Shown in pieces: positions 31,603 to 34,035 of a stretch of DNA of 49,674 bases. How positions within the stretch are numbered: the stretch's first letter is position 1; every line of letters starts with the position of its first letter. The DNA comes from Campylobacterota bacterium (GTDB lineage: Bacteria; Campylobacterota; Campylobacteria; Campylobacterales; Nitratiruptoraceae): the NCBI GenBank assembly GCA_013153715.1, contig JAADDW010000009.1, positions 1 through 49,674 on the forward strand, given 5' to 3'. The position numbers were made by a program, and so were the translations under genes. The notes under the pieces are model-generated. The model did not search any database. It worked only from the letters and a program-made list of their open reading frames with translations, and was not told the DNA's origin.

Positions 31603-33771
31603 TCAAGAGATCCTCTTGATCCCGCCGATGAAATAGACCACTCCACTCCTGTTATCGACGAGGAGGAAGAGGAAGTTGTGATCTACAATGAAGAAGTAGG
31701 GGTTCTGGGAGGAGGGAGGGGCGGCTGTTACCCAGGTGACGACAGCGGCCGTTCCAGCACTCCCTTCACTCCCCTTCCGATCCACCCGGAACTGGGCCTC
31801 GTGGTAGAGTCCGCTGACATAGAGGCGCCCCTCTGAATTCTGGTCCCTCCCTATGAGGGAGAGGTTGGCCCTCTCGGGATTGAAGAGGGTGGTGAGACCG
31901 ATCCTCTCCAGATTCTCCTTGAGGTTTTGGACCCCCCATTGAATGTCGAACTGGGGCATGGTGAGCCGAACCCTCTCCCTGTACTCCATCTCCCGTCGGA
32001 GTTTCCGGAGCCCCTCCCTCTTGAGGAAGGCCAACATATCGCATATACACCGATCTCCTTTGGGGAGGAGGATGATCATGGAGAGCTCTCCATCTCTGTA
32101 GGGAATGTCGATGGCCTGGAGTTCACCATTCTCATAGACGGAGAAGGGGGCTTCCACAGAGAGCATATCCACCTCCTCATCTCCCCCCTCTCCATGGAAT
32201 ACCCCCTTCATCACCTCTTCAAAGATATATTTCCACTCTCCCCGGAAGGAGATGGTATTGACGAGAACCCCCCTTGTTGAAGCATTTACCGAGTTTGGAG
32301 GGAGGAGCTCTTCGATCTCTGTCCGTTGGGCCACCCAGTCGTTAATCTCCCGACGGACCTCCTCCGCCCTGTGGAGGAAGTCAACGGAAAAGATCTCACT
32401 ACCGGTGAAATCTCTCACCTTGAGAAGGTAGCTGGGGTAGAGTTGGAAACTCTTTTCAAACCAGGCCGAATTGGCCTCTTGGAGTCTGTTGCTCCTCAGA
32501 TGGGGTTCTATCTCTTTGAACCCCTTGGCCAACTCCAACCCCCTTCCAAAGAGCTCCTCAATCTCCTCCTTCGTCACGCCGTCACTTCCGAGATAGACGG
32601 TCTGGAGGACCTTGGTTATGCTGTAGGGGGAGATAACGATATTCCCCTTTCCCTGATAAATATCACTTGCCAGGTCGTAGCCGAAGCCGTTGATATGGGC
32701 TACCAGCTCTGTTGTGTTGAGCTCCCTAGGTTCACTGCACGGTCCATCGTGGAGATAGGTTCCCCCCTCCTTTTTGAGGGTACAGTAGTTTTTGAAGGTC
32801 TCCCTCTGGGGGGGACAGGGGGCTTGAATACATTGGACCACCCGCTCCCCACAAACAGGGGCCTCCTCCTCTTCACAGGAGAGCTGGGAGCTGGATTTGA
32901 GAGAGACAATATCCTCCTTCCCATCGAGGTCGAAGATGACCCGCTCTACGCTCTCACTCAAGAGATAGCCCACCATGTAGTAGGCCATATCGGCTGTCAT
33001 CCCCCCTGAGGGGCGATCGACATGGAAGGAGACCTTGAAAACATGGGGAGCTATAAACCGCTCCTCCTCCCTCTTGACGGTGATGGAGCTACTAGGCATG
33101 GAGAAGGGGTAGAAGAGGAGAACTGCACCCTCCAGCTCTATCCCGTCTAGGGTGGCGAGAAACTCCTTCTTCCTATTCCACCCTCGGGAGGAGGCCTCCA
33201 CCCTCTCCTTGAAGCGGGCGAGATCATAGTTATTGGTGATGATAATGGGGTTCCGGAACTCATTGTATCCATTCTCTCTCCACGGAATTTCGACTCTGAC
33301 GGCAAAGTCCTCCCCTATGGAGATCTTCTCCCCATCAAATCTATTCTCCATGAGATAGGGGCCGTCATAACGGAGATAGTGCTCCTCTGGGGTCACCTCC
33401 CGAAGTTTATAGATGGTCTGGTCCCCACCCTGGGCAGGGGTGAGTATCCAGTCGAAACGGCTATCCCCATCTCCATCTATATCCCCCAGATAGAAGAAAT
33501 ACCAGAGGGGGTTGCCCAGGGAGAGTCCATGGACCTCCTTCCAACCGAAGACATTGGAGGGAGAGGGTTCTGTCCCCATCAATTGGAAGAGCCGCCTATC
33601 TCTGGTCTCGAAGACCCAGTTAAAGGGAGCCCTCGGATCATCCTTCGGATAGAAGGGATAGTAGTAGTATCTCCCAGAGAGGTCAAATGTACGGTTGACC
33701 AGAAGTTGGGGGGAGAAGTGACCTCCCACCAAGAGCGTCATGAGGGATAAGAAGATGAGTAATAGTTTCAT
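31603..33771 (-). CDS. Exported Kazal-serpin fusion protease inhibitor
   Basis: 722 residues from the ATG at 33771 (GGAGAAATT upstream). Signal peptide about 1-17. A unique N-domain (about 20-290) carries an LGDIDGDGDSRFDW acidic loop. A six-Cys Kazal-like module lies at about 298-345 (APVCGERVVQCIQAPCPP, then NYCTLKKEGG and HDGPC). A full serpin domain runs from about 355 to the end: NIVISPYSITKVLQ, GVLVNTISFRGEW, hinge GSEGSAGTAAVV, then FFIVDHNFLFLLVDN. The small-residue hinge indicates an inhibitory serpin; the P1 site is probably in the WVTAAPP segment. Serpins trap serine or cysteine proteases irreversibly. Bacterial serpins are scattered and may guard against foreign proteases. Location is periplasm or surface. 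Confidence 0.85.
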   Translation of the reverse strand: MKLLLIFLSLMTLLVGGHFSPQLLVNRTFDLSGRYYYYPFYPKDDPRAPFNWVFETRDRRLFQLMGTEPSPSNVFGWKEVHGLSLGNPLWYFFYLGDIDGDGDSRFDWILTPAQGGDQTIYKLREVTPEEHYLRYDGPYLMENRFDGEKISIGEDFAVRVEIPWRENGYNEFRNPIIITNNYDLARFKERVEASSRGWNRKKEFLATLDGIELEGAVLLFYPFSMPSSSITVKREEERFIAPHVFKVSFHVDRPSGGMTADMAYYMVGYLLSESVERVIFDLDGKEDIVSLKSSSQLSCEEEEAPVCGERVVQCIQAPCPPQRETFKNYCTLKKEGGTYLHDGPCSEPRELNTTELVAHINGFGYDLASDIYQGKGNIVISPYSITKVLQTVYLGSDGVTKEEIEELFGRGLELAKGFKEIEPHLRSNRLQEANSAWFEKSFQLYPSYLLKVRDFTGSEIFSVDFLHRAEEVRREINDWVAQRTEIEELLPPNSVNASTRGVLVNTISFRGEWKYIFEEVMKGVFHGEGGDEEVDMLSVEAPFSVYENGELQAIDIPYRDGELSMIILLPKGDRCICDMLAFLKREGLRKLRREMEYRERVRLTMPQFDIQWGVQNLKENLERIGLTTLFNPERANLSLIGRDQNSEGRLYVSGLYHEAQFRVDRKGSEGSAGTAAVVTWVTAAPPSSQNPYFFIVDHNFLFLLVDNRSGVVYFIGGIKRIS

Positions 33772-34035
33772 AATTTCTCCTTTTTTCCTTCCATTATCGA
33801 TCAAAATCCCTTCCTCCCCTCCCATAAATTGGAAATAGAGGAAGCTGGAGAGGGGCCTCTATTATTAATTCTACTACTTTTTTCTCCCTCCGTCCAATTC
33901 CGTAGAGAATTTAGGGGGCCCTCCCTTCAAAGGGAGAGGAAGGGGCAGTCACCCCAAATCCATCTCGAAAAGGGGGGTGTTGACCAACCCGTGCTACAAT
34001 ATCTCTCATAACCGCTGGAGAGAGGAAGGAGATCG
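33772..34035. promoter_or_regulatory. Divergent intergenic region, serpin / mshM-like
   Basis: 264 bases with no gene seen. On the plus strand an extended -10, TGCTACAAT (33992-34000), lies 35 bases before the mshM-like ATG and is followed by AGGAAGGAGATCG. No -35 fits at 17 bases. No Fnr-type box is present. On the minus strand the serpin ribosome site GGAGAAATT is seen, but its promoter is not obvious. Confidence 0.4.

Follow-up and report, generated by a model that had tools for sequence, protein, structure and literature searches.

Does one exported bacterial protein join two unrelated protease inhibitors, as a sequence-only reading had proposed for the gene at positions 31603 to 33771 of the 49,674-nucleotide stretch of Campylobacterota DNA analysed here (the window), and what would such a protein hold in check? 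The roles of prokaryotic serpins have been called enigmatic (PMC8233489). The genus concerned is one recorded at hydrothermal vents. It retains a single serpin, always within the same four-part protein, and so provides a tractable case for asking what a bacterial serpin protects against. The presence of a Kazal-like module beside the serpin would also make this protein a natural test of the cooperation of two inhibitor mechanisms in one chain; if the double-inhibitor proposal were true, two unrelated mechanisms would act together in a single bacterial polypeptide.

The open reading frame lies on the minus strand and codes for 722 amino acids from an ATG at 33771, with a ribosome-binding site (AAGGAG, 33777–33782) five bases 5' of it. 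An alternative in-frame ATG further upstream would add 18 residues, and the signal peptide would then not stand at the N-terminus. From the N- to the C-terminus the protein is composed of a signal peptide, a module of about 112 residues, a domain of about 155 residues, a six-cysteine segment and a complete serpin. The full-length model was obtained with AlphaFold2 (mean pLDDT 81, pTM 0.60), and the front part (residues 18–348) was predicted separately. Both the sequence and a model helix at residues 2–14 indicate a hydrophobic, helical, signal-peptide-like N-terminus that lacks a lipobox cysteine; the putative signal peptide covers residues ~1–17 (33721–33771). As had been proposed, we infer that the protein is exported, with a secreted or periplasmic location.

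The window belongs most likely to the genus Nitratiruptor, 16 genomes of which were compared. The serpin was detected in 11 of these, in a single copy each and always with the four-part architecture, and among the 22 genomes of the family that were searched full-length relatives were confined to this one genus. A contig scan with the single protein as query yielded no orthologue; an alignment-based scan recovered them. The 11 sequences, two of which are N-terminally incomplete owing to contig ends, align end to end and show 34–43% identity to the window protein, and the maintenance of the architecture at this level of identity in 10 other genomes rules out a chance open reading frame. Class-wide, a serpin match is present in seven of 397 sampled genomes (four of 68 genera); outside the genus, two intact serpins are found (L061 and L062). 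In a small serpin tree, the serpin domains of the orthologues form one group (SH-aLRT 97), outside which L061 and L062 fall. A separate modular bacterial serpin was observed in a MAG of the Oscillospiraceae (L042:5649–9116), where a 1156-residue frame carries a long front part and a serpin domain at its end.

Serpin (PF00079, MEROPS I4) is the single Pfam family found in the 722-residue protein. The match spans residues 360–717 and positions 3–366 of the 370-position profile, with a score of 248.6 bits against a cut-off of 27 (E 1.5e-73), and E-values go down to 1e-104 in the orthologues. The modelled domain (residues 350–722, 31606–32724) superposes on antithrombin (1e04) over 366 residues with a Z of 47.8 and an rmsd of 2.1, and a broad range of serpins of solved structure matches it in the PDB comparison. 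Family search and predicted structure thus both bear out the complete serpin of the earlier proposal; it is the sole serpin in its own genome.

The hinge, GSEGSAGTAAVV at residues 667–678, forms part of a reactive centre loop reaching from P17 to P6' (residues 665–687, 31711–31779), which reads RKGSEGSAGT AAVVTWV up to the predicted P1 and TAAPPS beyond it. Between P15 and P8 (G-S-E-G-S-A-G-T) all residues are small except the usual Glu at P13, and consequently insertion of the loop is not obviously blocked; the loop is also longer than those of the orthologues. The earlier claim is upheld in the form of a permissive hinge, and the loop is of adequate length. Identity among the 11 orthologues reaches 83% in the hinge as against 44% in the serpin body, which is the pattern of an inhibitory serpin. 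The 17-residue rule predicts P1–P1' to be Val681–Thr682 in the window serpin; for the other species it predicts Thr or Ile at P1 and Ala, Ser, Thr or Glu at P1'. These predicted residues are compatible with elastase- or subtilisin-like targets.

The window copy departs, however, from the strict inhibitory consensus (Glu at P17, Ala-rich P12–P9) to which the orthologues conform. Most of them carry the canonical hinge E-x-G-S-E-A-A-A-A-T, whereas the window copy has R-K-G-S-E-G-S-A-G-T. P17 (residue 665, codon 31777–31779) is Arg in place of the Glu present in all 10 orthologues; P12, P11 and P9 are Gly, Ser and Gly where these mostly have Ala, giving G-S-A-G from P12 to P9; and residue 607 is Gln where they have Lys or Arg. 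We take the P17/residue 607 pair to be the equivalent of Glu342–Lys290 of alpha-1-antitrypsin, the loss of which, as in the Z variant, favours polymerisation of that protein. Judged from the residues concerned, these changes at the breach could weaken inhibition or raise polymerisation in the window copy, and we regard them as a warning rather than as proof of loss. Since they occur solely in this copy, they speak for a serpin that is non-inhibitory or impaired in this species, its scaffold being kept for binding or structure while the trap decayed in the lineage. Such a decay nevertheless appears improbable, because the hinge residues are still small, the Pfam score still amounts to 249 bits, the reading frame is intact and the other species have canonical hinges.

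The segment preceding the serpin had been described as a six-cysteine Kazal-like module. Its cysteines, at residues 299, 307, 314, 319, 330 and 345 (32737–32877), are all invariant in the 11 orthologous sequences. The Pfam search for Kazal domains (PF00050/PF07648, MEROPS I1) gave no match in the window protein itself and none above the cut-off in any of the 11 orthologues, where the sub-threshold matches were to Kazal_2 in four members (at best 13.5 bits, in G009, against a cut-off of 22.8) and to Kazal_CFAI in one. When the profile of the module was compared with the PDB, the best two matches were both Kazal inhibitors (E 0.42 and 0.8, neither significant singly). Profile–profile comparison with 13 Kazal sequences (hhalign) gave a probability of 86%; in that alignment cysteines fall on cysteines, and the three motifs PVCG, T-Y-x-N-x-C-x-L and G-x-C coincide. 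Within this set, GmSPI-2 was confirmed against the PDB and the other sequences came from the alignments of that same comparison, apart from the C-terminus of ovomucoid domain 3, which was supplied separately. Cysteines 2, 3, 4 and 6 of Kazal domains are aligned, neither Cys1 nor Cys5 has a counterpart, and two cysteines lie in an insert of ~12 residues, so that the module does not have the classical six-cysteine spacing with its Cys1–Cys5 bridge. The model displays a beta2-alpha-beta arrangement (strands 306–310 and 322–326, helix 329–334, strand 338–342), and the best of 996 chains aligned to the model of residues 18–348 is GmSPI-2 (4hgu), which falls on residues 295–346 (Z 5.3, modest, for a small domain; rmsd 3.7; 40 of 40 residues; 35% identity).

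We assign the window module to the Kazal fold because relatives, profile comparison and predicted fold agree: the segment is very probably a non-classical Kazal-like domain of the two-disulphide type, with an extra cysteine pair in its insert. The description as Kazal-like is therefore retained, and that of a classical Kazal domain is not. The failure to pass the Pfam cut-off, the E-values of 0.42 and 0.8 at best in the PDB profile search and the two additional cysteines in the insert speak for a disulphide knot of other origin, similar to Kazal domains in spacing only. We think this unlikely in view of the sub-threshold Kazal_2 and Kazal_CFAI matches in the relatives, the Kazal nature of both best PDB matches, the superposition of Cys on Cys by hhalign and the first rank of GmSPI-2, aligned over its full 40 residues. 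In the 397 genomes of the class, no match to the module was detected outside the orthologues, and matches on plasmids were at chance level only.

Does this module inhibit? A true double inhibitor would use the canonical loop of the Kazal-like module, with its acidic P1, as a reversible inhibitor of Glu/Asp-cleaving or other proteases, and the serpin, with Val or Thr at P1, as an irreversible trap for a second protease; the loop might perhaps dock the enzyme for the serpin. The Kazal-like fold and the C-x7-C loop of the window protein agree with this proposal, being shared with GmSPI-2, an inhibitor of subtilisin and proteinase K, but the loop between the first two cysteines is of seven residues only here and in L003 and of eight residues in the other nine of the 11 sequences. 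The Glu directly after the first cysteine is nearly invariant and PVCG is kept. The would-be P1, two residues after the first cysteine, differs between species, a variability often seen at P1 of inhibitors. It is Glu here, and the orthologues have Asp, Gly, Gln or Asn; none of these five residues is a usual strong P1, and in this respect the module is unlike common Kazal inhibitors. An acidic P1 can nonetheless serve Glu-specific proteases. Mean pairwise identity is 60% in the Kazal-like module, 54% in the N-module, 44% in the serpin body and 36% in domain 2, and the invariant columns of the module are situated mostly in the insert and the C-terminal half, not in the loop. A structural or exosite function agrees with this conservation pattern no less well than one as a reactive site, and Kazal-like folds are also employed as non-inhibitory spacers, for instance in follistatin and agrin. 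We consequently hold the heterotypic double inhibitor to be doubtful. The half of that claim that stands is the serpin with its permissive hinge; the Kazal half is weakened by a P1 position that is acidic, amide or Gly and by a loop of variable length.

The N-terminal ~270 residues had been presented as one unknown domain. They indeed have no assigned family, but they consist of two parts, a multi-copy module (residues 24–135, 33367–33702) and a domain found in the orthologues only (residues 136–292, 32896–33366). The N-module is present in 11 copies in its own genome, in most other searched genomes of the genus and in one further genus of the 68 in the class. Besides the window copy, those of its own genome (G000) are located at C19:8114, C40:931, C36:7140, C26:16014, C7:12073, C10:323, C7:25719, C20:13982, C20:5029 and C42:35641; outside the genus, four copies were seen in G370, a member of another family. 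The partners of the module are LVIVD propellers, RCC1 repeats, multihaem cytochrome-like proteins and MORN-repeat proteins. It precedes the partner domains, and follows them in L020 and L026. Being common to exported proteins of these kinds, this mobile module is not specific to inhibition. Pfam gave no family for it (FG-GAP_3 was sub-threshold, E 0.05). It carries DIDGDGDSRFDW, a motif resembling a calcium-binding loop, and its D-x-D-x-D-G-like loops suggest that it may act in calcium binding and in the display or assembly of exported proteins.

Domain 2 is a beta-rich mixed beta/alpha domain, modelled with a pLDDT of about 90. Residues 136–292 matched no known family, and their relatives were found only among the orthologues. 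A PrcB-like identity, suspected by eye, was discarded, as PF14343 gives no match at the locus. For the fold of residues 18–292, Foldseek returned no E below 0.001 and VIA-align no Z above 4.5, values that do not imply novelty of the fold.

Proximity to a pilus locus had led the sequence-only reading to suggest defence of surface structures. The window gene is flanked by a TauE/SafE permease gene and by an AAA-TPR gene pair adjoining type IV pilus/T2SS genes. None of the 10 orthologue loci (6–20 kb each) contains a match to any other gene of the window; the neighbourhood is thus not conserved, genomic context gives pilus protection no support, and the link was abandoned. Eight of the 10 orthologues (L064, L066 and L068–L073) adjoin PqiA/PqiB-like genes, recognized by eye, together with a gene of 113 residues, and most of these eight loci have a further neighbour gene of ~640–780 residues; this set is absent near the window copy.

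A subtilase of the host itself was likewise rejected as the target. The search of the genome of the window revealed no S8 subtilase, and across the genus such enzymes occur in six of the 16 genomes, in no clear co-occurrence with the serpin. Consequently, an external protease or one of a different class would have to be the target. G009 (C2:4389–5249) and G015 (C2:7255–8115), both near-complete genomes of two contigs, carry their S8 subtilases on the second contig, which may be a plasmid.

We therefore favour, as the probable answer, a modular inhibitory serpin, secreted or periplasmic, whose front parts would position it, and trapping of elastase- or subtilisin-like proteases as its likely function. 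The reactive centre loop, with its predicted Val–Thr bond, would serve as the bait, and a serine protease of elastase- or subtilisin-like type would cleave it; the loop would then insert into sheet A, leaving the enzyme trapped and inactive in a covalent complex. Ahead of the serpin, the N-module, the unassigned beta-rich domain and the Kazal-like module would place it. The last of these, braced by disulphides and directly before the serpin, could be a rigid spacer or an exosite, and may itself bind protease.

Modular bacterial serpins are a kind already known, of which this protein is a variant. In PinA, the accessory part is a dockerin. PinA of Clostridium thermocellum, a modular bacterial serpin that inhibits subtilisin-like proteases (reviewed in PMC12484212), resembles the window protein in being bacterial, exported and modular, with an accessory part that places the serpin among secreted proteins. 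It differs in that its accessory part is cellulosomal, in coming from another phylum and in having no Kazal-like module. The combination of a Kazal-like module and a serpin in a bacterial protein was not found described in the literature searched, which does not prove its absence. The Campylobacterota serpins L061 and L062 belong to the same class but are stand-alone proteins of 444–454 residues without front modules, outside the orthologue group. To our knowledge, the serpins of groups T and U are serpin domains without such fused modules. These serpins (miropin, siropins, tengpin and thermopin; PMC8233489) share with the window protein the serpin fold, frequent export signals and an inhibitory hinge. 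For the Kazal-like module, the nearest relative is GmSPI-2 of the moth Galleria (4hgu), a non-classical Kazal inhibitor of subtilisin and proteinase K with two disulphides, seven loop residues and a P1 two residues after the first cysteine (PMC4169406). Both lack the Cys1–Cys5 bridge and keep the other four cysteines in register; the beta2-alpha-beta fold of GmSPI-2 is predicted here too, and its C-x7-C loop recurs in the window protein itself, whereas the module described here has an insert of ~12 residues with an extra pair of cysteines, an acidic residue instead of Thr at the P1 position and a place within a larger protein.
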